A DNA stretch of 64,000 bases, from assembly GCF_016107395.1 (NCBI RefSeq), contig NZ_JAAIKO010000026.1, positions 1-64,000 of the forward strand, written 5' to 3'. The notes beneath the pieces were generated by a model. The model searched no databases. It was not told the DNA's origin and saw only the letters and a program-made list of their open reading frames with translations. This DNA comes from Streptomyces fildesensis. GTDB lineage: Bacteria > Actinomycetota > Actinomycetes > Streptomycetales > Streptomycetaceae. This document shows, in pieces, positions 5,190 to 15,895 of this stretch. Made by a program: the position numbers and the translations under genes. Numbering within the stretch: position 1 is the stretch's first letter; the number at the start of each line of letters is the position of its first letter.

Positions 5190-6122
5190 TCAGCTGATCC
5201 GCAGGACTCCGGGGAGCTCGATCGCGGCGCCTGATGATTCCGGGCCACGGCAGGTGCGGCGGTGCAGACGGGCCATCCGGTCCGTGCGGAGGTTGTCGCG
5301 GAAGGCCGGGTGGCCGTGCAGGCGTCGCACGTAGGCCCACAGGCGGTCGTGCCGGGCGATGGCGTGTACCGCGTCGGCGTCCAGGTGGAGACGGCCGACG
5401 AGGTCGAGGTGTACGAGGGTCACCCAGAGGTCCACGTCCGCGGCGGTCAGTTCGTCGCCCAGCGCATAGGGCCCGGTGGCCAGTTGGCGGTCGAGAAGGT
5501 CCAGTGCCGCGAGCAGGGTTTCCAGCGCCTCCCCTCGGCGGTGCGATGCCGGGGCCGCACCGGCCCGTTGGGCGGCTTCGGCGATGTCCTCGTCAAGGAG
5601 TTGCCGGATGGTCTCGATGTCCGCGACGAGGGCCGGCGGGCGCAGGCGGGGCAGGCCGTCCCGGCCGTGCTCGGTGAGGTGGTCGGCGAGGTCGACGAGG
5701 TCGCGGAGGATGTCGGGGGTCTGATCGCTGACGATGCGTCCGCTCCAGCGGTCGGACAGCGCGGGCACGGTGAGTGGACCGTCGTAGTGGTGCCGGGTGG
5801 CCTCGTAGGCGCTGCGCAGTGCCACGAGCGGGTCGGGGGTGCCGGCCGACCGGGGGACGGGGGTGATGGTGACCGAGTCCGTGAGGGCGAGCAGGTCCAG
5901 GGTGATCGACACCCGCAGGGACCGCGGACAGCCCGGCGCTAGGTACACGTTGTAGCGGAGGGGCGCCGGATAGAACCCGCCGGCGAGGTCGACGCCGATA
6001 CGGCTGCCGAAGTGCGACGCGCGGGCGGCCAGGGTGACCTGGGGGTCGGACACGGCGGGTCGGAGATCGCGGACGGTGGCCGGGCGTGAGGTGAGCGGGC
6101 TGGGCAGAGCTGTCTCGGGCAT
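5190..6122 (-). CDS. Xi-class glutathione S-transferase-like (thiol reductase) protein
   Basis: A 310-residue two-domain GST fold. The thioredoxin-like half has LAPGCPRSLRVSITLDLLAL, matching the CPWAxRxLI active-site region of glutathionyl-hydroquinone reductases, and SDQTPDILRDL matches their SNES-type motif. The C-terminal helical half runs ALDLLDRQLATGPYALGDELTAADVDLWVTL. Actinobacteria use mycothiol rather than glutathione, so the true co-thiol is uncertain. The start at 6122 follows a GGAGAG site. A short leader-peptide ORF lies 147 bases upstream, and flavin sulfur-monooxygenase genes lie beyond it, which suggests a role in organosulfur use (inference). Confidence 0.8.
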   Translation of the reverse strand: MPETALPSPLTSRPATVRDLRPAVSDPQVTLAARASHFGSRIGVDLAGGFYPAPLRYNVYLAPGCPRSLRVSITLDLLALTDSVTITPVPRSAGTPDPLVALRSAYEATRHHYDGPLTVPALSDRWSGRIVSDQTPDILRDLVDLADHLTEHGRDGLPRLRPPALVADIETIRQLLDEDIAEAAQRAGAAPASHRRGEALETLLAALDLLDRQLATGPYALGDELTAADVDLWVTLVHLDLVGRLHLDADAVHAIARHDRLWAYVRRLHGHPAFRDNLRTDRMARLHRRTCRGPESSGAAIELPGVLRIS

Positions 6123-6268
6123 GGCTCTCCAATGCGGGGAGGGAAGCAGCCTGGGCGTGCCGAAGCGGCATCGGTGGCAGGACGCCTGGAGAGCCCGGTG
6201 TCTGGGTGTGCGGACGACGCCTGGCCCGGTGATGTGCGCCTACGGGAGCCCCTCAGGAGCTGTCCCGG

Positions 6269-6385
6269 TCAGACCGCCGGGCTGCCGGTCGCGCTGCAGA
6301 CCCGCAACAGGTCGATGTGGAGACGTCGGGTCAGGAGCGGCCGACGGGCGCTCGCCTTCCCCGTCCCACTGCCAGTGCGCGGCAT
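6269..6385 (-). CDS. Sulfur-type leader peptide (38 aa)
   Basis: A 38-residue ORF whose C-terminal part contains RRLHIDLLRVCSATG. This is the R-x-x-H-[IV]-D-x-x-R-V-x-S pattern of short actinobacterial leader peptides found before sulfur-assimilation genes. The same pattern recurs at 7286-7405 and 13650-13724 in this window. It ends 147 bases upstream of the GST-like gene on the same strand. It contains a single cysteine codon near the end. Likely role: translation-dependent attenuation by sulfur or cysteine supply (inference by analogy with mycobacterial cysteine-responsive leader ORFs). Its GGTGGAG lies directly against the ATG, so the exact start is uncertain. Confidence 0.6.
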   Translation of the reverse strand: MPRTGSGTGKASARRPLLTRRLHIDLLRVCSATGSPAV

Positions 6386-6584
6386 CTCCACCGGTCCCAT
6401 CATCGGGGCTCGTGAGACACGAGACCACGCTTGTCCCGCCACCCCGGCAGGACCCGGTCATCACCCAGGGCACCCCGTCGCGGAGAAGGGTTGCCTGTCA
6501 GCGGGCCGGGGCCGATGACCCACTGGGGCAGGAACCCCGAGGTGGGCGCTGAATATCGTTACCGTCCTCAACAGTGTGGTTGCG

Positions 6585-6690
6585 CCCTGTGACGGAGTCA
6601 AGAAGGCGGCGGCTCCGTCTCATGGACCGGTACTGGACGACGGACACCACGCTGGTGAGGATCACGTACCAGACGGTGGCGACCACCGGG
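6585..6690 (-). pseudogene. C-terminal remnant of an amino-acid ABC permease, inverted
   Basis: Read leftward, this stretch gives VVATVWYVILTSVVSVVQYR followed by a basic tail. This closely matches the last transmembrane segment and end of polar amino-acid/cystine ABC permeases (typical pattern VA-VWYL-LTS-LS--Q). It lies head-to-head with the truncated ATPase that starts at about 6675 on the other strand. In intact operons permease and ATPase run in the same direction. It appears to be debris left by an inversion or deletion. The match is short, so the call is moderate. Confidence 0.5.
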
Positions 6691-7169
6691 TGCTGGACGG
6701 CGTGGACCTGACGGTGCGGCCAGGACAGGTCACGGTGATCCTCGGGCCGTCCGGCTCCGGCAAGTGCACCCTGCTGCGGGTGATCAACCACCTGGAGAAG
6801 CCGGAGGTCGGCTACGCCAGCCTCAACGGCGAACTGATCGGCGTCCGCAGACAGGGCGAACGGCTCAAGGAGCTGAGCGAGCGCGCGATCCTCGCTCAGC
6901 GCAGCCGGATCGGCTTCGTCTTCCAGAACTTCAACCGCTTCCCGCACCTGACCGTGCTGGACAACGTGGCAGCGGCGCCCGTGGCGACGGGCCTGCTGCG
7001 CAAGCCCGAGGCGCAGGCGCTGGCCCGTACCCTCCTCGACCGGGTGGGGCTGGCCGACAAGACCGGTGCGCATCCCCGGCAGTTGTCCGGCGGCCAGCAG
7101 CAGCGGGTGGCGATCGCCCGTGCCCCCGCACTGCGGCCGGGGGTGATTCCACCTCGTACGGACGCCTGA
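6675..7169 (+). pseudogene. Truncated amino-acid ABC transporter ATP-binding protein
   Basis: The homologous part starts at GDHRVLDGVDLTVRPGQVTV. It shows Walker A as GPSGSGKCT (the usual GKST serine is Cys), the Q-loop FQNFNRFPHLTVLDN and the signature LSGGQQQRVAIARA. It then stops at PALRPGVIPPRTDA, exactly where Walker B (VILFDEP) should follow. About 90 C-terminal residues, including Walker B and the switch histidine, are absent, so the protein cannot hydrolyse ATP normally. The family would be polar amino-acid/cystine import, often linked to sulfur-source operons. An open frame continues upstream to 6576, without family homology. Confidence 0.8.
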
Positions 7170-7285
7170 GCATGGGGCGGAATAGGTGGCGTGGCGGCTG
7201 CGTTGTGGGCGACGGGGGTACAGGCATGCCCCCCGGGTCGGCACTTTCTGGTGGACCGCGGACACGATGGGTGGAGGTGACGTCG

Positions 7286-7405
7286 ATGCAGGCTGAATCC
7301 GGCCGGTTCGTCGTCGAACCCCTGGTCCCGCGTGGCTGCGTGCACCTGTACTCCCGGTCCCACATCGACCTGCTGCGGCTGGCCGGCGCGCTCTGTTGCG
7401 CCTGA
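7286..7405 (+). CDS. Sulfur-type leader peptide (39 aa) before the monooxygenase operon
   Basis: A 39-residue ORF with a good ribosome binding site (GGAGG at 7273-7277) that ends YSRSHIDLLRLAGALCCA. It has the same HIDLLR core as the other two leader ORFs and a Cys-Cys pair near its end. It lies 71 bases before the GTG start of the first flavin monooxygenase, and a 7-bp hairpin (7417-7444) fills the gap. This arrangement fits ribosome-mediated attenuation, in which slow decoding of the tandem Cys codons under cysteine shortage would relieve a downstream block. Mechanism is inferred from analogy. Confidence 0.75.
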   Translation: MQAESGRFVVEPLVPRGCVHLYSRSHIDLLRLAGALCCA

Positions 7406-7416
7406 CGCGTTCCCCG

Positions 7417-7444
7417 CGCCGGGCCCTGCCGAGCAGACCCGGCG
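7417..7444 (+). promoter_or_regulatory. Hairpin between leader ORF and operon (candidate attenuator)
   Basis: CGCCGGG (7417-7423) pairs perfectly with CCCGGCG (7438-7444) around a 14-base loop. It lies 12 bases after the leader-peptide stop and 31 bases before the operon start. There is no T-run, so it may act on translation or on a Rho-type terminator rather than as a classical intrinsic terminator. Confidence 0.45.
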
Positions 7445-7475
7445 ATCGTGTACGGCCGATCAGGAAGACATCGTT

Positions 7476-8684
7476 GTGCCCGCATTTCCTCCTTCACCTC
7501 TGCATCTTGCCGTGGCCCTGGACGGCGCGGGCTGGCACCCGGCCGCCTGGCGCGCACCACAGGCCAGGCCTCGCGACCTGCTCACCGCCGGCTACTGGGC
7601 CGACCTCGTCACCGAGGCGGAACGCGGCCTGCTCGACTTCGTCACCTTCGAGGACGCCCTCGGGCTGCAGTCGTCGCGCTTCACCGAGCCGGACGATCGC
7701 ACCGATCAGGTACGCGGCCGGCTGGACGCGGTCCTCATCGCCGCCCGCGTCGCACCGCTGACGCGTCACATCGGGCTGGTGCCGACCGTCGTCACCACCC
7801 ACACCGAGCCGTTCCACATCTCCAAGGCGATCGCCACCCTGGACTACGTCAGCACCGGCCGTGCGGGCCTGCGGGTCCAGGTGTCGGCACGGCAGAGCGA
7901 GGCGGCCCACTTCGGCCGTCGTACGTTCCCGCCTCTGCGCATCGAGGACCTGGACACCCCGGAGGTCCGGGAGTTGACCGCCGAGCTCTTCGAGGAGGCC
8001 GCCGACCACGTCGAGGCCGTCCGCCGTCTGTGGGACAGCTGGGAGGACGACGCGGAGATCCGCGACACCTCCACCGGGCGCTTCGTCGACCGCGACAAAC
8101 TGCACTATGTCGACTTCGAGGGCCGGCACTTCAGCGTCAAGGGACCCTCGATCACCCCCCGGCCGCCCCAGGGACAGCCGGTCGTCACCGCCCTGGCGCA
8201 CCAGAGCGTCCCCTTCCAACTGGTGGGCCGTTCCGCCGACATCGGCTACGTCACCCCGCACGACCCCGGCCACGCCCGCGCCATCTCCGACGAGATACGC
8301 GCGGCCCAGGCCGCGGCAGGGCGCTCCGACGAGCCCCTGCACATCTTCGGTGACCTGGTGGTCTTTCTCGACGACGACGCGGCAGCGGCGGCGGACCGCA
8401 AGGCACGCTTGGACGACCTGGCGGGTTACCCGTACACCAGCGACGCGAAGATCTTCACGGGAAGCCCCGCACAACTCGCCGACCTGCTCCTGCAGTGGCA
8501 GCAGGCCGGACTGTCCGGCTTCCGGTTGCGTCCCGGCGTCATCGGCCATGACCTTCCGGCGATCACCCGCGGCCTGGTGCCCGAACTCCAGCGCCGCGGC
8601 GCCTTCCGGCGGGTGTACGAGGCCGACACCCTGCGCGGGCTGCTCGGGCTGTCCCGTCCCGCCAACCGCTACGCCACCGTCTGA
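7476..8684 (+). CDS. LLM-class flavin-dependent monooxygenase
   Basis: A 402-residue luciferase-like (TIM-barrel) flavin enzyme: LHLAVALDGAGWHPAAWR at the N-terminus, LLDFVTFED, then IGLVPTVVTTHTEPFHISKAIATLDYVSTGRAGLRVQVS, the usual substrate and flavin pocket strand. Enzymes of this type oxidise C-S or C-N bonds with FMNH2 and oxygen, and many release sulfite or a thiol from organosulfur compounds. The GTG at 7476 follows AGGAAG. It is the first gene of a four-gene monooxygenase operon behind a sulfur leader peptide, which suggests sulfur scavenging. Substrate unknown. Confidence 0.85.
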   Translation: MPAFPPSPLHLAVALDGAGWHPAAWRAPQARPRDLLTAGYWADLVTEAERGLLDFVTFEDALGLQSSRFTEPDDRTDQVRGRLDAVLIAARVAPLTRHIGLVPTVVTTHTEPFHISKAIATLDYVSTGRAGLRVQVSARQSEAAHFGRRTFPPLRIEDLDTPEVRELTAELFEEAADHVEAVRRLWDSWEDDAEIRDTSTGRFVDRDKLHYVDFEGRHFSVKGPSITPRPPQGQPVVTALAHQSVPFQLVGRSADIGYVTPHDPGHARAISDEIRAAQAAAGRSDEPLHIFGDLVVFLDDDAAAAADRKARLDDLAGYPYTSDAKIFTGSPAQLADLLLQWQQAGLSGFRLRPGVIGHDLPAITRGLVPELQRRGAFRRVYEADTLRGLLGLSRPANRYATV

Positions 8685-8704
8685 GCCGGGAGGACCGTCC
8701 GACC

Positions 8705-10087
8705 ATGAGCAAGCCACTGAAGCAGATCCATCTCGCGGCCCACTTCCCCGGTGTCAACAACACCACCGTGTGGAGCGACCCGCGGGCCGGCAGCCACATC
8801 GAGTTCAGCTCGTTCGCGCACTTCGCGCGGACCGCCGAACGCGCCAAGTTCGACTTCCTGTTCCTCGCCGAAGGGCTGCGGCTGCGCGAACAGGCCGGGC
8901 AGATCTACGACCTGGACGTGGTCGGGCGGCCGGACACCTTCACGGTGCTGTCCGCTCTGGCCGCGGTGACCGAGCGCCTGGGCCTGACCGGCACCATCAA
9001 CTCCACCTTCAACGAGCCCTACGAGGTGGCCCGCCAGTTCGCCAGCCTCGATCATCTGTCGGACGGGCGTGCCGCCTGGAACGTCGTCACCTCCTGGGAC
9101 GCGTTCACCGGCGAGAACTTCCGCCGCGGCGGCTTCCTCCCGCAGGACCAGCGGTACTCCCGCGCCACGGAGTTCCTCGCGACCGCCATCGAGCTGTTCG
9201 ACTCCTGGCACGGTGAGGAGATCGTCGCCGACCAGGAGTCCGGCATCTTTCTGAAGGACGCGCGCGCCGGGGCCTTCGTCCATGAGGGAGAGCATTTCGA
9301 CATCGCCGGGCAGTTCAATGTCCCGCGCAGTCCGCAGGGCCGTCCGGTGATCTTCCAGGCCGGTGACTCGGAGGAGGGCCGGGAGTTCGCGGCCTCCACC
9401 GCGGACGCGATCTTCAGCCGGTACGGCACCCTGAAGGAGGGTCAGGAGTTCCACGCCGACGTCAAGCGCCGGCTCGCCCGCTACGGGCGCCGCCCCGAGC
9501 AGCTGCTGATCCTGCCGGCCGCGACCTTCGTGCTCGGCGACACCGACGCCGAGGCCCAGGAGCTGGCCCGCGAGGTGCGCCGGCAGCAGGTCAGCGGAGC
9601 GACCGCGCTCAAGCACCTGGAGTTCGTCTGGAACCGCGACCTGTCCGGCTACGACCCGGACGGCCCGCTGCCCGACATCGACCCGGACCTCGGTGAGCAC
9701 ACCATCGCCCGCGGCCGCGCGCAGGTGCGGATGTACCGTGACCCGCTGGCCACCGCCCGCCAGTGGCGTGAGCTCGCGGCGGTCAACAACTGGTCGATCC
9801 GCGACCTCGTCATCGAGACCGGCAGCCGGCAGATCTTCGTCGGCTCCCCGGCCACCGTCGCCGAGTCCATCAACACCCTCGTCCAGGCCGATGCCGCCGA
9901 CGGCTTCATCCTGGTTCCGCACATCACCCCCACCGGTCTGGACGGCTTCGCCGACACCGTCGTACCGCTGCTGCAGGAGCGCGGTGTCTTCCGCACCGCG
10001 TACGAGGGCACCACGCTGCGCGACCACCTGGGACTGGCCCACCCCGACGCCGCCGCCGAGCCGGGCACCGGGCGGGTGGCGTCGTGA
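8705..10087 (+). CDS. NtaA/SnaA/DszA-family FMN-dependent monooxygenase
   Basis: A 460-residue member of the nitrilotriacetate/dimethylsulfide/dibenzothiophene-sulfone monooxygenase family: KQIHLAAHFPGVNNTTVWSDP at the N-terminus, TGTINSTFNEPYEVARQFASLDHLSDGRAAWNVVTSWD, and NVPRSPQGRPVIFQAGDSEEG. It is two-component: reduced FMN comes from a separate flavin reductase, which is not encoded here. Its length fits the family. It starts 20 bases after the preceding gene and overlaps the next by GTGA, so it is part of the same operon. Probable role: C-S bond cleavage for sulfur supply. Confidence 0.88.
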   Translation: MSKPLKQIHLAAHFPGVNNTTVWSDPRAGSHIEFSSFAHFARTAERAKFDFLFLAEGLRLREQAGQIYDLDVVGRPDTFTVLSALAAVTERLGLTGTINSTFNEPYEVARQFASLDHLSDGRAAWNVVTSWDAFTGENFRRGGFLPQDQRYSRATEFLATAIELFDSWHGEEIVADQESGIFLKDARAGAFVHEGEHFDIAGQFNVPRSPQGRPVIFQAGDSEEGREFAASTADAIFSRYGTLKEGQEFHADVKRRLARYGRRPEQLLILPAATFVLGDTDAEAQELAREVRRQQVSGATALKHLEFVWNRDLSGYDPDGPLPDIDPDLGEHTIARGRAQVRMYRDPLATARQWRELAAVNNWSIRDLVIETGSRQIFVGSPATVAESINTLVQADAADGFILVPHITPTGLDGFADTVVPLLQERGVFRTAYEGTTLRDHLGLAHPDAAAEPGTGRVAS

Positions 10088-11161
10088 AGTTCCTGGCCAT
10101 CACCCTCATCGTGCACGCCCCCGACCCGGTGACCGGGGTGCTGAAGCCGACCCACGACCGTTTCCGCGAGGTGATCGACAACGCGGTGTTCGCCGAGGAG
10201 ACCGGGTTCGACGGCTTCGGCGTCGGCGAACGCCACGAGCGGCCGTTCATCTCCTCGTCGCCACCGGTCGTGCTCAGTCACATCGCCGCGCTCACCTCCA
10301 GGATCCGGCTGTTCACCGCCGTCACCACCCTCAGCCTGCTCGACCCGGTACGCGCCTACGAGGACTACGCGACCTTGGACCACTTGTCCGACCCGCCTGG
10401 ACCTGATCATCGGGAAGGGCAACGGCACCGCCCAGCGCGAGCTGTTCCAGGTCACTCCCGATGACCAGTGGGAGCGCAACGCCGAGAGCTATGAGCTGTT
10501 CCGCCGGATCTGGCGGGAGGACAAGGTGACCGCAGAACCGCGCTTCCGCCCGGAGCTCACCGCCGCCGAGGTGTGGCCCAGGCCGTACCAGCAGCCGGTG
10601 CGGGTCTGGCACGGCAGCGCCACCAGCCGGGAGTCCGTCGACCTCGCCGCCCGCTACGGCGACCCGCTGTTCTCGGCCAATGTCACCAACCCCATCGAGC
10701 CCTACGCCGAACTCGTCCGCCACTACCGGGAGCGCCGGGCCCACTACGGCCACGACGCCGCCCACGCGGTGGTCGGCGCCGGTACCGCCGGGTACTACGC
10801 GGCACGCACCTCGCAGGAGGCGATCGCCGCCTACCGGCCGGTCTTCGAGGGGCAGCTGGCCTTCCAGAAGCGGCTGGGTCTGGAGCCGGTGTTCGCGACC
10901 CTGGAGGACTTCGTGGAGCGCAGCTCGGCGCTGATCGGCAGCCCCCAACAGGTGATCGACAAGGTGCACCGCTACCACGAGCAGTTCGGCCACAGCGTGC
11001 TCCATCTGCAGGCGGACGCGAGCGGGCTCGGCGACGCCCGGCACCGGGCCTCGCTGGAACTCTTCCAGTCCGACATCGCGCCCGTACTGCGGCGCGACAT
11101 CCCCGACCCACCGTTCCCCTGGGCCCCGGTCCTCGCCGCGCCCCGACCCGCCGACTTCTGA
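10084..11161 (+). pseudogene. LLM flavin monooxygenase with an internal frameshift
   Basis: Translation starts at the GTG (10084) overlapping the previous stop: MKFLAITLIVHAPDPVTG through VRAYEDYATLDHLSD. The conserved continuation GRLDLIIGKGNGTAQRELF is found only one frame over. At 10390-10396 the DNA reads GACCCGC where GACGGCCGC would give LSDGRLD, so two bases are missing. The second frame then runs cleanly to the stop at 11159-11161. Without the shift the protein would be about 360 residues, normal for the family. As it stands the product ends at 10464 with an unrelated tail. It is a real lesion or a sequencing error in a GC run. Confidence 0.85.
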
Positions 11162-11175
11162 GGAGCACCCCGATC

Positions 11176-12321
11176 ATGTCCGGCATCCCTCTCGGGGTTC
11201 TCGACCTCGTCCCGGTTCCGTCCGGGTCCACCGCGGCCGACGCGCTGCACAACAGCATCGACCTCGCCCGCCAGACCGAGCGGTTCGGCTACACCCGCTA
11301 CTGGGTCGCCGAGCACCATCTCAACCCGGGCGTCGCCGGGACCTCTCCCGCTGTCGTGCTGGCCCTGACCGCCTCCGCGACCTCCACGATCAGGATCGGT
11401 TCCGGGGCGGTCCTGCTGGGCCACCGCACCGCCCTGTCCACCGTCGAGGAGTTCGGCCTCATCGACGCCCTGCACCCCGGGCGGCTCGACCTGGGCCTCG
11501 GCCGCTCCGGGGGACGTCCCCCCAGTCCGAGCGCGGACTCCGTTCCGGCCGTGGGACCCGTCGTGACCGCGACCCCGGTCATCGACGGACACGCTCCCAA
11601 CGGGCTGCGGATCCCACCCCGGTTCTCCTTCGAGCACCTGCTCGGCTCACCCCGGTTCGCCCTCCAGCAGCGCCTGCTGCGCCAACCGAACGCCGAGGCG
11701 CAGGATTACGGCGAGCAGATCGACGACATCCTCGCCCTGCTGCGCGGCACCTACCGTTCGGCCGACGGCGTCGAGGCGCACGCCGTGCCCGGCGAGGGCG
11801 CCGCCGTGCAGGTGTGGATCCTGGGCAGCAGCGGCGGGCAGAGCGCCGACGTCGCCGGCCGCAACGGTTTGCGTTTCGCCTCCAACTACCACGTCAGCCC
11901 GGCCACCGTCCTGGAGGCGACCGAGGGGTACCGCGCCGCGTTCCAGCCCTCCGACGATCTCGACAAGCCGTACGTCAGCGTCTCGGCCGACGTCGTCGTC
12001 GCCCAGGACGACGCGACGGCCCGTGAACTCGCCGCCGGCTACGGTCCGTGGGTCCGCAGCATCCGCACCGCAGAGGGCGCCATCGCCTTCCCCACCCCCG
12101 AGCAGGCCCGCGCCCATGTGTGGACCGACGAGGACCGGGCTTTGGTGGCCGACCGCGTCGACACCCAGTTCGTCGGCACCGCAGGACATGTGGCCGACCA
12201 GCTCGAACGACTTCAGGAGGCCACCGGCGCCGACGAGCTGGTCATCACGACCATCACGCACGACCACGCCGACCGGGTGGGTTCCTACCGGCTCCTGGCC
12301 GAGGAGTGGCAACGCCGCTGA
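11176..12321 (+). CDS. LLM-class flavin-dependent oxidoreductase
   Basis: A 381-residue luciferase-like enzyme: IPLGVLDLVPVPSGSTAADAL, then RYWVAEHHLNPGVAGTSPAVVLALTASATSTIRIGSGAVLLGHR, and LHPGRLDLGLGRSG. The first family glycine loop is followed by a low-complexity insert (GRPPSPSADSVPAVG) whose DNA holds a 14-bp palindrome, GGGGGACGTCCCCC, at 11509-11522. That looks like an inserted repeat. ATG at 11176 follows AGGAG. It is the last gene of the monooxygenase operon and probably acts in the same organosulfur pathway. The substrate is not predictable. Confidence 0.85.
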   Translation: MSGIPLGVLDLVPVPSGSTAADALHNSIDLARQTERFGYTRYWVAEHHLNPGVAGTSPAVVLALTASATSTIRIGSGAVLLGHRTALSTVEEFGLIDALHPGRLDLGLGRSGGRPPSPSADSVPAVGPVVTATPVIDGHAPNGLRIPPRFSFEHLLGSPRFALQQRLLRQPNAEAQDYGEQIDDILALLRGTYRSADGVEAHAVPGEGAAVQVWILGSSGGQSADVAGRNGLRFASNYHVSPATVLEATEGYRAAFQPSDDLDKPYVSVSADVVVAQDDATARELAAGYGPWVRSIRTAEGAIAFPTPEQARAHVWTDEDRALVADRVDTQFVGTAGHVADQLERLQEATGADELVITTITHDHADRVGSYRLLAEEWQRR

Positions 12322-12389
12322 GGTCCTTCCCATGACGGGCCGCTGGGGGCCTGACAGCCCGCGGTCAATGGGTCGTAACGCATCGGCGG

Positions 12390-12439
12390 ACTGTCAGTCT
12401 GGGTTGACAACATGATGGCTGTCAGCCCAGACTGACAGT
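12390..12439. promoter_or_regulatory. 20-bp inverted repeat over a promoter: likely autoregulatory operator
   Basis: ACTGTCAGTCTGGGTTGACA (12390-12409) and TGTCAGCCCAGACTGACAGT (12420-12439) are inverted copies with one mismatch, separated by 10 bases. The left arm contains a perfect -35 TTGACA (12404-12409). A weak -10 CAGACT (12428-12433) sits 18 bases further on. The next gene begins at 12441, 7 bases after that box, with no ribosome binding site, so the transcript is probably leaderless. The HTH protein encoded immediately downstream is the natural candidate to bind it. Confidence 0.7.
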
Positions 12440-12440
12440 C

Positions 12441-12644
12441 ATGGAAGCAGGAGATCTCGCAGAACGCCTCAGGTCGCACGACCCCGCCGTCGGGCTACGG
12501 GCGGTGGGCGCCCTGCACCGACTGGCCGAGCAGATCGAAACGGCAGCGGTGGTCCGCGCCAGGGAGCAGGGATGGTCCTGGGAACAGATCGGGGATGCCC
12601 TCGGCGTGTCACGGCAATCGGCGCACGCCAAACACGGGAAGTGA
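12441..12644 (+). CDS. Small helix-turn-helix protein
   Basis: A 67-residue protein with a C-terminal [23 protein letters not shown], the typical regulator partner found beside Clp-N-domain proteins in streptomycetes. Its start abuts a large palindrome that covers the promoter, so it probably represses its own operon. It is separated from the Clp-N gene by only 7 bases and must be co-transcribed. The DNA-binding assignment is firm; regulation is inferred. Confidence 0.8.
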
Positions 12645-12651
12645 GACGACA

Positions 12652-13122
12652 GTGTTCGAACAGTTCGCAACAGGTGCCCGCGCGGCGGTCACGTCCGCTC
12701 TGGAAGAAGCCAGGCTGCGCGGCGATCGCCGCATCGGCACCGAGCACCTCCTCCTGGGAGTACTCCACGAGCCCGGCTCGCTCGCGGTCCGATCCCTCGG
12801 TACCGACCTGGAGGCCGCACGTACCGCCCTCGACGTCCTCGACCGGTCGGCACTGGCCGCGATCGGCATCGACGTCCAGGGCGTCGAGAGGCCGCCGGTC
12901 CCCGTCTCACGCAAGCGCACCCCCTTCACCTCCGGTGCCCGCTCGGTGCTCCCGCGCGCCCTCGTCGAGGTGAAGAAGGCCGGCAGCCGGCGCATCACGC
13001 CGGAGCACCTGCTGCTCGCGATCCTTGACTGTGAGCGGCCTGATCCCGCGGCAGAGCTGATGGAGCAGCTGGGCATCGACCGTGCGGCCGTCCGTGAACG
13101 CATCAGGCAGGCGGACGCCTGA
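12652..13122 (+). CDS. Clp N-terminal-domain protein
   Basis: A 156-residue protein with two Clp-N (ClpA/B/C N-terminal) repeats. The first includes [25 protein letters not shown] (about residues 25-50), the second [25 protein letters not shown] (about 115-140). No AAA+ ATPase module follows, so it is a stand-alone adaptor-like domain that may bind ClpP-associated partners or substrates. It starts with GTG 7 bases after the HTH gene. Such HTH/Clp-N pairs are common in Streptomyces; the biological role is not established. Confidence 0.85.
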
Positions 13123-13146
13123 GATCCCCGGTCCACCCAGAGATCG

Positions 13147-13345
13147 TCATGAGGTGGTGAGTTCGCGTACGAGCGCGGCGACCTGCTCGGTTTCGATGAG
13201 AAAGCCGTCGTGACCGTAGGGGGAGTGGACCATTCGCAGCCGGTCGGCCGAAGGAATACCGGCTGCCAACTCGGCCTGCTGGGCGGGTGGGTAGAGACGG
13301 TCGGAGTCGACTGCGGCGACCAGCGTCCTGGCGGTGACCCGGCGC
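13147..13345 (-). pseudogene. C-terminal remnant of homoserine O-acetyltransferase (metX)
   Basis: Leftward reading gives [53 protein letters not shown] and a stop at 13147. This is the last ~60 residues of MetX, with the catalytic Asp (VDSDRLYP) and His (GHDGF). All upstream MetX sequence is gone: the frame joins, out of phase, to a MetY fragment at about 13340. MetY and MetX normally sit in that order in one operon, so one deletion could have removed everything between. Confidence 0.8.
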
Positions 13346-13597
13346 TGCCCGCCTCGACGCCGTCACGCAGTTCGAAGGCCAGGACCGCGCCGGCACCACG
13401 CGGCAGATAGCGCTGCCCGGCCTCGTACCACTGGTTGGACGGCAGGCCCGGGTAGTGGACGGCGGCGACCTCGTCGCGCTGCTCCAGCCATTCGGCGAGC
13501 GCCTGGGCGTTGGCCGAGTGCCGTTCGATGCGCAGGCTGAGTGTCTCCACGCCCTGCAGCAGCAGGAAGGCGGAGAGCGCGCCGAAGGCGCGGAGAC
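13340..13597 (-). pseudogene. Internal remnant of O-acetylhomoserine sulfhydrylase (metY)
   Basis: Leftward reading gives [20 protein letters not shown], then [20 protein letters not shown], then [37 protein letters not shown]. This is the characteristic C-terminal third of PLP-dependent MetY/CGS-family enzymes. The pyridoxal lysine region and the true C-terminus are missing. It begins abruptly at about 13597, 50 bases after a sulfur leader-peptide ORF on the same strand, and runs into the metX remnant. It is non-functional debris of a metY-metX operon. Confidence 0.8.
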
Positions 13598-13649
13598 AAG
13601 GGGGATGATCAGCGGCCGGAGAGGGCGGCCGGACGCCGGGAGCGTGGCG

Positions 13650-13724
13650 TCAGCGCACGGCGCGACAACCGGTGCTGGTGACACGCCCGTAGTCCACGTG
13701 GCGACGGGTCACAAGCAGGGTCAT
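13650..13724 (-). CDS. Sulfur-type leader peptide (24 aa) before the metY/metX remnant
   Basis: A 24-residue ORF reading MTLLVTRRHVDYGRVTSTGC plus RAVR. It shares the RRHVD-x-x-R-V-x-S core with the leader ORFs at 6269 and 7286 and has one cysteine codon near the end. It lies on the same strand 50 bases upstream of the metY fragment, the position expected for an attenuator peptide of a methionine/sulfhydrylation operon. Its survival in front of a destroyed operon makes it a relic. A possible GCAGGG site lies inside the ORF, so initiation is unclear. Confidence 0.6.
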   Translation of the reverse strand: MTLLVTRRHVDYGRVTSTGCRAVR

Positions 13725-13836: not shown

Positions 13837-14619
13837 TCATCCGCGCTCGCGGAGGTACGCCTCCAGCTCTGCCGCCCCGGTCAGCATCGACCGTCCGCGG
13901 GCGGAGAGTCGACCGTGCCAGTCGCACAGTGCGGCCTCCAGCGGTTCCAGGCCGCCGGCCGCCCGCACCTGGGTGATCAGCGGGGCGATCTGCTCCAGCA
14001 GATAGCCGCCCCGCCTGAGCTGATGGGCCAGCCGGGCATCCCGAACGTCGGCCTCGTCGTAGACGCGGTAACCGGTCCGTGGGTCGCGGCGCGGGCGCAC
14101 CAGCTCGGCGCGCTCCCATTTGCGCAGCGTCGCGGGCCGGATTCCGAGCTGGTCCGCCAGCGGCCCGATGAACGTGGGCCCAATGAAGGTGCCGCCGGGC
14201 CCGGACACCGCGGCCGGCTCGGACTCCACGCCGGGCTCGGACCCGACACCGGGCTCGGACCCCAAACCGGGCTCCAGGTCGCGGAGGGCGCTCTCCACAG
14301 CCTGGAGCGTCCGCCGGTCGCCGAGCAGTTGGGCGTGGCTCTCGTCGATGAGGCGCAACGCCTCGTCGACCGCACCCTGGTTCACGGCCCGCAGGATCGC
14401 CGCCGCCGTCCGGTGGCCGTGGCCGGGCACCAGGGCGAGGAACGCGCGCAGGGCCCCGGCGTGCAGCGGGGTGTAGGTGCGGTAGCCGTGGGGTGTGCGA
14501 ACGGCGGCCGGCAGGATGCCGGCCTCCTCGTAGTTCCTGACCGCCTGCGTGGACAGACCGTGCCCGCGCGCCAGATCGACCGGCCTGAGCCGATCACCAC
14601 TTTGAAGGTTTCTCCGCAT
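13837..14619 (-). CDS. MerR-type regulator with two HTH domains (TioE-like)
   Basis: A 260-residue regulator with two MerR helix-turn-helix regions. The first covers residues 9-45 (VDLARGHGLSTQAVRNYEEAG, then TPHGYRTYT). The second is in the C-terminal half (ADQLGIRPATLRKWERAELV, then TGYRVYDEADVRDARLAHQL). A repetitive linker, GSEPGV/ESEP, separates them. Proteins called TioE-type have this double-MerR plan. The start is the ATG at 14617-14619; homology ends there although the frame is open further. It is divergent from the erythromycin-esterase homologue, its probable target, with inverted repeats between them. Confidence 0.82.
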   Translation of the reverse strand: MRRNLQSGDRLRPVDLARGHGLSTQAVRNYEEAGILPAAVRTPHGYRTYTPLHAGALRAFLALVPGHGHRTAAAILRAVNQGAVDEALRLIDESHAQLLGDRRTLQAVESALRDLEPGLGSEPGVGSEPGVESEPAAVSGPGGTFIGPTFIGPLADQLGIRPATLRKWERAELVRPRRDPRTGYRVYDEADVRDARLAHQLRRGGYLLEQIAPLITQVRAAGGLEPLEAALCDWHGRLSARGRSMLTGAAELEAYLRERG

Positions 14620-14642
14620 GAAGCTGACGATATCGCGGGAAA

Positions 14643-14674
14643 GTTTCAACCGAAGGTTCAACGATACCGTTGAA
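14643..14674. promoter_or_regulatory. Operator-like repeats between merR-type gene and esterase gene
   Basis: TTCAAC (14657-14662) and GTTGAA (14669-14674) form an inverted repeat with a 6-base gap, and a further GTTTCAAC lies at 14643-14650. Such dyads placed in the spacer of divergent promoters are typical MerR-family binding sites. The only candidate regulator nearby is the double-MerR protein. Confidence 0.5.
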
Positions 14675-14677
14675 GGC

Positions 14678-15895
14678 ATGGCTACTGACATCAAGGACAC
14701 CGTCCATGCCGTCGAGGCTGCCGCCGTCATGAGGCTGCTCCAGGACCGGCCTCGGCTGCTCGCCCTGGGCGAGCCCACCCACGGCCAGGATGCTCTGCTC
14801 GACCTGCGCAACGAGCTCTTCCAGCAGCTGGTCGAGCAGGAGGGCTACCGGACGATCACGATCGAGAGCGACTGCATGATGGGACTGGTCGTGGACGACT
14901 ACGTCACCTCGGGCACGGGCACTCTCGACGAGGTCATGGAGCAGGGAGTCAGCCACGGCTGGGGCACCTTCGCGGCCAACCGCGAGCTCGTGCGCTGGAT
15001 GCGCTCCTACAACGTCCGCGCCGAGACCGACGGCCGGCCCGCGTTTGAGCGGCTCCGCTTCGCCGGGTTCGACGGCCCGCTGGAGATCACCCATGCCGCG
15101 AGCCCCCGGCAGGCCCTCACCGCACTCCACGGCTACCTCGCGGCCCGGGTGGAAGCGGACCTGCTCCCCTGTACCGCGGACACCCTCGACCGCCTGCTGG
15201 GTGCCGACGACCGGTGGACCGATCCCGCCGCGATGATGGACCCGTCCCGATCCACGGGGCAGTCGGCCGAGGCCGGTCAACTGCGGCTGCTCACCGACGA
15301 TCTGGTGGCGCTGCTCGACGCGCGGACGCCGCACCTGATCACGGCGAACTCGCGGGACGACTGGGACCGGGCTCGCCTGTACGGGCGCACCGCGACCGGC
15401 CTGCTGCGCTACCACCACTCGATGGCCGACACTTCACCGGCCCGCATGACCCGGCTGTGCGCGCTGCGGGACTTGATGATGGCCCACAACCTCCTCGCCC
15501 TCGCCGAACGGGGCCCGGTACTCGTCCACGCCCACAACTCCCATCTCCAGCGGGAGAAGAGCACGATGCAGATGTGGCAGGGGCCGGTGGAGTGGTGGAG
15601 CGCCGGTGCGCTGGTGAGCGCCCAACTCGGCAAGGAGTACGCCTTCGTGGCCGCAGCCCTTGGCACGATCCGGCACCAGGGAGTGGACACACCGCCGCCG
15701 GACACCGTCGAAGGACTCCTGTACGCGCTCCCGGAAGACCGCTGCGTCATCGACGCCCCGCGGCTGGCCACCGCCCTCGGCACCACACGGCCCGAGACCC
15801 GCGTGTCCCCCTGGTTCGGCTACGCCCCGCTCGACCCGGCCCACCTGGCCGACAGCGACGGTCTCGTGTTCGTCAAGGACGTCCAGCAGAGCTGA
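14678..15895 (+). CDS. Erythromycin esterase family protein
   Basis: A 405-residue homologue of EreA-type macrolide esterases. ALGEPTHGQDALLDLRNELF carries the conserved Glu/His pair, IESD the catalytic-site Glu, and VLVHAHNSHLQREKSTMQMW a second conserved histidine segment; it ends YAPLDPAHLADSDGLVFVKD. Some family members open macrolactones, but many have unknown hydrolase roles, so macrolide resistance is only a possibility. I place the start at the ATG at 14678; an in-frame ATG at 14618 has no ribosome binding site and would run through the operator. It is divergent from the MerR-type regulator. Confidence 0.8.
   Translation: MATDIKDTVHAVEAAAVMRLLQDRPRLLALGEPTHGQDALLDLRNELFQQLVEQEGYRTITIESDCMMGLVVDDYVTSGTGTLDEVMEQGVSHGWGTFAANRELVRWMRSYNVRAETDGRPAFERLRFAGFDGPLEITHAASPRQALTALHGYLAARVEADLLPCTADTLDRLLGADDRWTDPAAMMDPSRSTGQSAEAGQLRLLTDDLVALLDARTPHLITANSRDDWDRARLYGRTATGLLRYHHSMADTSPARMTRLCALRDLMMAHNLLALAERGPVLVHAHNSHLQREKSTMQMWQGPVEWWSAGALVSAQLGKEYAFVAAALGTIRHQGVDTPPPDTVEGLLYALPEDRCVIDAPRLATALGTTRPETRVSPWFGYAPLDPAHLADSDGLVFVKDVQQS

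Follow-up and report, generated by a model that had tools for sequence, protein, structure and literature searches.

Leader open reading frames behind SAM-IV riboswitches suggest two-input sulfur control in an eroded Streptomyces gene cluster

Results

Three members of a widespread leader-peptide family

The first 64,000 nucleotides of contig NZ_JAAIKO010000026.1 of Streptomyces fildesensis (assembly GCF_016107395.1; hereafter the window) carry three short open reading frames (ORFs) that an initial annotation, made from the letters alone, had taken for leader peptides of a sulfur-responsive island. These ORFs do belong to a family of leader peptides that is widespread among bacteria and stands ahead of sulfur genes, and just upstream of the first lies a SAM-IV riboswitch, of the class named for S-adenosylmethionine (SAM), which the annotation had overlooked. 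From comparison of the sequences we favour, with a probability of roughly 58%, the reading that the window holds a decayed cluster under two-input sulfur control, one input being the riboswitch and the other a translated leader. The parts recur in the relatives in a single order: SAM-IV aptamer, hairpin, short leader ORF with the motif R-x-H-[IV]-D-x-x-R-V, C-rich stretch and gene. Two known RNA sensors would thus be joined in one control element, which recurs across sulfur operons of the Actinomycetes.

The three ORFs were found where the initial annotation had placed them: leader 1 (P0001, MPRTG...LLTRRLHIDLLRVCSATGSPAV) at 6269..6385 on the minus strand, leader 2 (P0002) at 7286..7405 on the plus strand and leader 3 (P0003, MTLLVTRRHVDYGRVTSTGCRAVR) at 13650..13724 on the minus strand. 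They do share a motif, R-x-H-[IV]-D-x-x-R-[VL], although the R-x-x-H spacing first proposed fits leader 1 alone and R-x-H is correct. A six-frame translation of the window holds three matches to this loose motif, compared to a mean of 0.1 and a maximum of 1 in 60 dinucleotide shuffles of the same 64 kb. Counting codons from the motif H, leaders 2 and 3 have TGT at +11 (7394-7396 and 13665-13667, respectively), the position usual for a cysteine codon in the family; leader 1 does not, having GGC at +11 and a cysteine TGC at +7. The description of all three as ending with cysteine codons holds only for leader 2, since the single TGC of leader 1 and the single TGT of leader 3 lie nine and five codons before the stop. 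Because GGTGGAG directly adjoins its ATG, the start codon of leader 1 is uncertain, and no clear Shine-Dalgarno (SD) sequence precedes leader 3.

Leader 2 passes the cut-off of 27 bits for the NCBIfam model NF042934 (cis_reg_atten, putative leader peptide) with 32.2 bits, while leader 1 falls just under it (26.3) and leader 3 further below (17.3). The best model for leader 3 is NF042936 (Ms4527A family; cut-off 45), which both leader 3 (29.5 bits) and leader 1 (23.2 bits) fail, and whose cut-off was reached in none of 35 same-genus genomes. At E<=0.001 NF042934 has eight matches in the 9.39-Mb genome. Two of these lie in the window within about 1 kb of each other, with leader 3 as a far weaker third (E 0.265), and the leaders are therefore truly concentrated here. 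A link to sulfur, as first claimed, is supported by the genes behind other leaders of the same genome. Of five that were tested, one each encodes a PALP-family (cysteine-synthase-type) enzyme, a rhodanese, a nitrite/sulfite reductase and an ABC permease; a sulfur role is not evident for the remaining one, a GNAT acetyltransferase.

SAM-IV riboswitch and leader in tandem

The aptamer ahead of leader 1 (6422..6535, minus strand) is a full match to Rfam RF00634 at 62.4 bits (gathering score 38), and its 3' end lies 36 nucleotides (nt) before the leader's ATG. Directly 3' of it stands a hairpin (6405..6426, minus strand) that is likely the expression platform. Across 26 sequences (23 distinct) of the module ahead of a glutathione S-transferase (GST)-like gene, 98.3% of the cells of this hairpin are paired. 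Its covariation is modest: four both-side changes were counted, compared to 1.0 in shuffles, and none of 500 shuffles was as high, whereas the two pairs in which these changes fall were matched in number by 55 of the 500. The copy in the window has a compensatory U-A pair of its own.

All 35 same-genus genomes contain SAM-IV, with 76 sites that exceed the gathering score and a single one that falls short of it. One site per genome, here termed core, precedes an Aminotran_5 (cysteine-desulfurase-type) homologue, and at none of these 35 was a leader ORF present within 300 nt. The accessory copies differ in that most have a leader ORF next (35 of 41), the motif H following 51-127 nt past the aptamer, a distance measured from the aptamer end to the H and not to the start codon. 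The tested genes behind them encode luciferase-like monooxygenases, ABC permeases, the GST and solute-binding proteins (families 3 and 5, NMT1); at one accessory locus (L082) we found a DUF1684 frame and no sulfur gene, where the choice of frame may have hidden a monooxygenase. The association is also visible when approached from the gene: among 47 GST homologues in named genomes, 44 are preceded by a leader ORF and 38, on the strand of the gene, by a SAM-IV that exceeds the gathering score. Outside the family of the host, the same kind of ORF follows SAM-IV at four of 20 second-site loci, before an FMN reductase (L223), a PAPS_reduct-domain gene (L232), a monooxygenase (L233) and a solute-binding protein (L234), and one of 30 best-site loci (L199) has a poly-Cys ORF followed by a Cys_Met_Meta_PP gene; chance pattern matches at L213 and L220 were set aside by eye.

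Two loci deserve mention in their own right. At L006 a GNAT acetyltransferase, which is no obvious sulfur gene, stands behind a leader resembling the SAM-IV-linked MYAGPGMAAWRRHGR type, with both SAM-IV matches of that genome lying elsewhere. L081 holds three SAM-IV matches, one of them just over the gathering score at 40.8 bits, on the two strands of a stretch of about 1.0 kb that lacks a leader ORF.

One UGU codon at a fixed distance from the motif

We collected 129 distinct leaders with a search pattern that required the motif H and D, but no cysteine, and removed one false match (L016); what this set can reveal are the arginines, the cysteine positions and their codons. The residue at -2 is arginine in 129/129, where seven letters were allowed, and that at +5 in 127/129. 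Cysteine occupies +11 in 83 leaders, and every one of these 83 codons is TGT, while the cysteines at +4 and +7 are encoded by TGC (9/9 and 33/34). An enlarged set of 171 leaders, which includes class-wide loci and for which Cys at +11 was required, so that it tests only the codon and its neighbours, has TGT in 171/171. The next base is C in 132, T in 33, A in 6 and G in none, compared to G as the first base of 42% of background codons, and third-base T at the remaining positions from -4 to +15 runs at 1-26%. The background share of TGT among cysteine codons is 19.6% (509/2593, counted over long frames with high third-position GC at the loci fetched), and in the window it is 9/73.

The rule extends across the class. 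Loci fetched by profile (70 loci, 23 family labels) have TGT at +11 in 68/68 aligned leaders, two (L265 and L299) not being alignable and one (L246) being the same place as L233; the motif H can be A among them. Poly-Cys leaders in this set also keep TGT at +11, while their other cysteine codons vary. We infer that UGU is the sensing codon and is read by wobble. Any account of cysteine attenuation in these bacteria must explain this rule, by which a single UGU keeps a constant spacing from a conserved peptide.

One such account would be a programmed frameshift, by which a ribosome at the hungry UGU joins leader and next gene in one product. In the window the +1 frame of leader 2 indeed runs without a stop into the monooxygenase gene, and this frame is open for at least 60 codons in 96 of the 171 leaders, compared to 56 for the other shifted frame. 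Downstream genes are nonetheless spread over frames 0, +1 and +2 (47, 37 and 46 of 130 loci), which contradicts a fusion and makes it next to impossible.

A GST branch without the codon

The 46 of the 129 leaders that lack Cys at +11 all come from GST-gene loci: 21 have cysteine only at +7, seven only at +10 and 18 have none after the motif. Leader 1 is of the +7 type. Ten GST leaders of this type have AGT at +11. Among 44 GST leaders, 20 end in L-T-R-R-L-H-I-D-L-x-R-[VI]-S-S-A-Y-stop with no cysteine, and 19 of these 20 are SAM-IV-linked. These SSAY-type leaders form a related group, and their loss of cysteine may go back to one event. Over 15 codons of their 18 distinct sequences the synonymous differences (pS) reach 0.325 and the nonsynonymous differences (pN) 0.023, a ratio of 0.07, and the peptide is therefore kept under purifying selection. 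A stop codon (TAG in nine, TGA in nine) occupies +11, the place of the UGU, in 18/18, and the codons of the two serines are invariant at the DNA level. The implication is that evolution has itself carried out an experiment akin to the Cys-to-Ser leaders proposed in the initial annotation, removing the cysteine and keeping the peptide.

These observations bear on whether the leaders are plain cysteine-codon attenuators as in mycobacteria, with SAM-IV acting independently upstream and the peptide motif surviving without a role as a relic of common descent. Cysteine at +11 in 83 of 129 leaders found by motif, and in all 28 non-GST leaders (by eye) among the 35 linked to SAM-IV, fits such attenuation, as do the mycobacterial cysteine leaders previously studied (Canestrari 2020, cited in PMC9094748 and PMC13236596). 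Plain attenuation would not predict a pN/pS of 0.07 in the 19 SAM-IV-linked leaders without post-motif cysteine, nor one invariant UGU place in poly-Cys leaders, and we consider it unlikely. Leader 1 is its poorest case, because GST leaders lack the +11 cysteine (46/46) and often any cysteine after the motif. The initial annotation had extended the mycobacterial type of control to all three ORFs. This is plausible for leaders 2 and 3, where TGT at +11 is kept, but the codon has disappeared from the relatives of leader 1, for which such control is doubtful; the annotation also left SAM-IV out.

A constraint on the RNA, whereby base pairing or protein binding, and not decoding, preserves the leader sequence and UGU with its following non-G base, would account for the absolute third-base T and the absence of G after it in all 171 leaders, for the T retained in AGT in the ten GST leaders, and for the DNA-invariant serine codons of the SSAY group. 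The downstream pairing potential of the +11 window is, however, not special, which leaves a special RNA pairing of this codon without support, and other positions vary synonymously; we regard such a constraint as quite improbable.

Conservation of amino acids beyond the sensed codon is a trait of arrest peptides, and the Cys-less leaders have it. It is conceivable, though we hold this only tentatively and as something well short of a likely account, that the leader is a nascent-chain sensor in which R-x-H-[IV]-D-x-x-R-V, lying in the exit tunnel, would stop the ribosome together with a fixed codon that occupies the decoding site 11 codons past the H. That codon would be UGU in nearly all non-GST leaders and, in many species of the GST branch, a stop. 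The peptide of that branch would then be TnaC-like, with arrest upon termination; it would be coupled to SAM-IV and no longer sense cysteine. TGT becomes TGA by a single change. TnaC-type systems combine an arrest peptide with Rho; the likeness here lies in the stop codon as a possible stall site in Cys-less leaders and the C-rich RNA that follows.

As a separate observation on the GST loci, repeated units at L111 and L117 stretch the interval from leader stop to GST start to 231 nt each, with a copy number that seems to vary between species.

RNA between leader and gene

We measured C-over-G skew 20-100 nt before genes preceded by a leader. It averages +0.223 and is positive in 75/78, compared to +0.049 and 319/554 in control regions (Mann-Whitney p 2.5e-19, with kinship ignored); after the 35 core aptamers it is +0.054, with 22 positive. 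The region from leader 1 to the GST gene (6123..6268, minus strand; skew +0.18) is a candidate Rho-loading region and also holds segments that pair with the SD. Intrinsic terminators found no support: no terminator-like site lies in 6000-7600, and T5 runs occur at just 5 of 170 loci. RNA that is rich in C and poor in G, where intrinsic terminators are not seen, points to Rho, and we suggest that Rho acts after the leaders. Among 17 SSAY-type relatives, a hairpin covering the SD of the GST gene has each of its pairs retained in 15-17, and its covariation is slight.

Under two-input control these parts would work as follows. With SAM bound, the leader would be translated less, or transcription would proceed beyond it less often. 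On a leader that is translated while Cys-tRNA is scarce, the ribosome would slow at the fixed, wobble-read UGU 11 codons after the H, and the held ribosome would mask the C-rich RNA beyond and keep Rho off. A fast ribosome would leave this RNA exposed, and transcription would end. The gene would be made only if SAM and cysteine were both low.

Several observations weigh against this scheme. The window itself is a weak example: skew over 80 nt is +0.138, +0.071 and +0.355 after leaders 1-3, its SAM-IV is somewhat degenerate (62 bits, compared to 97-118 for core copies of the genus), its leader-to-gene RNA is not unusually stable (z 0.32), and the cysteine input as stated is inapplicable to leader 1, a member of the GST branch. 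C-richness, moreover, is no test of Rho. Folding of 39 GST-module sequences, the window included, with the footprint of a stalled ribosome changed SD accessibility by about zero on average and inconsistently; unmasking of the SD by a stalled ribosome finds no support in this equilibrium model, and downstream hairpins acting as switches are left unsupported by this result and by the lack of terminators in 6000-7600. Six of the 41 accessory SAM-IV sites have no leader ORF (nine sites not labelled core lacked one, of which L043, L049 and L067 proved core by homology of the next gene), as have, by eye, 16/20 and 29/30 of the second-site and best-site loci outside the family. Lastly, the sequences are related, and the counts are not independent events.

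Relation to known systems

The names of NF042934 and NF042936 say only that a putative leader is involved, with no word of the SAM-IV link, the UGU rule or the Cys-less GST branch. The polycysteine upstream ORF (uORF) attenuators of mycobacteria (Canestrari 2020) are likewise short cysteine ORFs ahead of sulfur genes, and a similar core, R-R-A-V-D-L-C-R, occurs in our poly-Cys leaders L238-L240, L242 and L243. Our leaders differ from them in often having a single cysteine codon at a fixed place, often after a riboswitch, and in including a Cys-less branch. Rho was proposed for mycobacterial cys leaders in 2005, according to passages of PMC1262725. The uORF before cysS of Rhodobacterales (uORFC-8-2; PMC8632094) also has cysteine codons, but there UGC dominates and an intrinsic terminator comes next.

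Riboswitches combined with small upstream ORFs are known from Mycobacterium tuberculosis: excerpts describe the Mbox (rv1805A), where a uORF is controlled via a translational platform and Rho (PMC12810186), and B12 riboswitches with uORFs at ppe2/metE (PMC11260477). These systems have other ligands, and the word cysteine occurs in neither text. In Streptomyces clavuligerus an aminotransferase class V gene is reported to be preceded by a premature transcription unit in which SAM-IV is predicted (PMC8269248), and of the eight leader peptides listed in a reannotation of S. lividans none is ascribed to cysteine (PMC8079986). Titles, abstract openings and passages of the open-access literature searched contained neither the tandem of SAM-IV and leader ORF nor the UGU rule. 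Riboswitch-uORF-Rho control and cysteine leaders are each known; their combination, the UGU at its constant place and the branch that lacks cysteine appear to be new.

Neighbouring genes and decay of the cluster

The initial annotation had the leaders preceding a GST-like gene, a flavin monooxygenase operon and a metY/metX remnant, and we found all three. Behind leader 1 lies the GST-like gene (5190..6122, minus strand; GST_C_2), a full open frame of 310 aa whose profile is nearest to structures of the Xi-class or glutathionyl-hydroquinone-reductase type. Leader 2 is followed by a luciferase-like (LLM) monooxygenase operon (7476..12321, plus strand), the third gene of which is split over two frames (10084-10464 and 10526-11161), and leader 3 by a C-terminal remnant of metY (13147..13550, minus strand; Cys_Met_Meta_PP, profile positions 245-309 of 381) and then a metX-like end, recognized by eye. 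A truncated ATPase of an amino-acid-type ABC transporter (6576..7169, plus strand) is probably the remnant of a neighbouring module. The genome is a draft, and the frame breaks may be sequencing errors.

A former cluster of several sulfur operons, as first proposed, finds support in the relatives. At L057, of the same genus, the aptamers of three SAM-IV and leader modules, serving an ABC permease (minus strand), a GST and a monooxygenase (both plus strand), lie within about 1.6 kb, and by sequence the window is made of like parts, rearranged and eroded. Relatives of leader 2 at L077/L078 have SAM-IV (around the leader the DNA is 76% identical across 89 nt; E 7e-13), and the type of leader 3 precedes a Cys_Met_Meta_PP (MetY-type) gene at L187, a locus read to its end. 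No SAM-IV remnant was found at E<=10 before leader 2 (its strand, 6000-7500) or before leader 3. The window thus has a first module with SAM-IV and a leader without UGU, a second with a UGU leader and no SAM-IV, and a third with a UGU leader and no gene.

Such erosion raises the question of whether leader 1 and its SAM-IV are themselves decaying relics without function in this strain. The low aptamer score, the truncated ABC gene, the split LLM gene, the loss of SAM-IV at the second module and the metY remnant would agree with this. The GST gene, however, is intact at 310 aa, the post-aptamer hairpin has its compensatory pair and the leader motif is kept, and we think loss of function rather unlikely.

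Beyond these modules, a near-perfect inverted repeat, noted by eye at 12380-12440 (ACTGTCAGTCTGGG...CCCAGACTGACAGT), is operator-like; right next to it come a small ORF (12441) and a Clp_N gene. Further along, an erythromycin-esterase-family gene (14618-15895, plus strand; PF05139, 188 bits) lies beside a frame on the minus strand (13837-14811) that by eye resembles a regulator.

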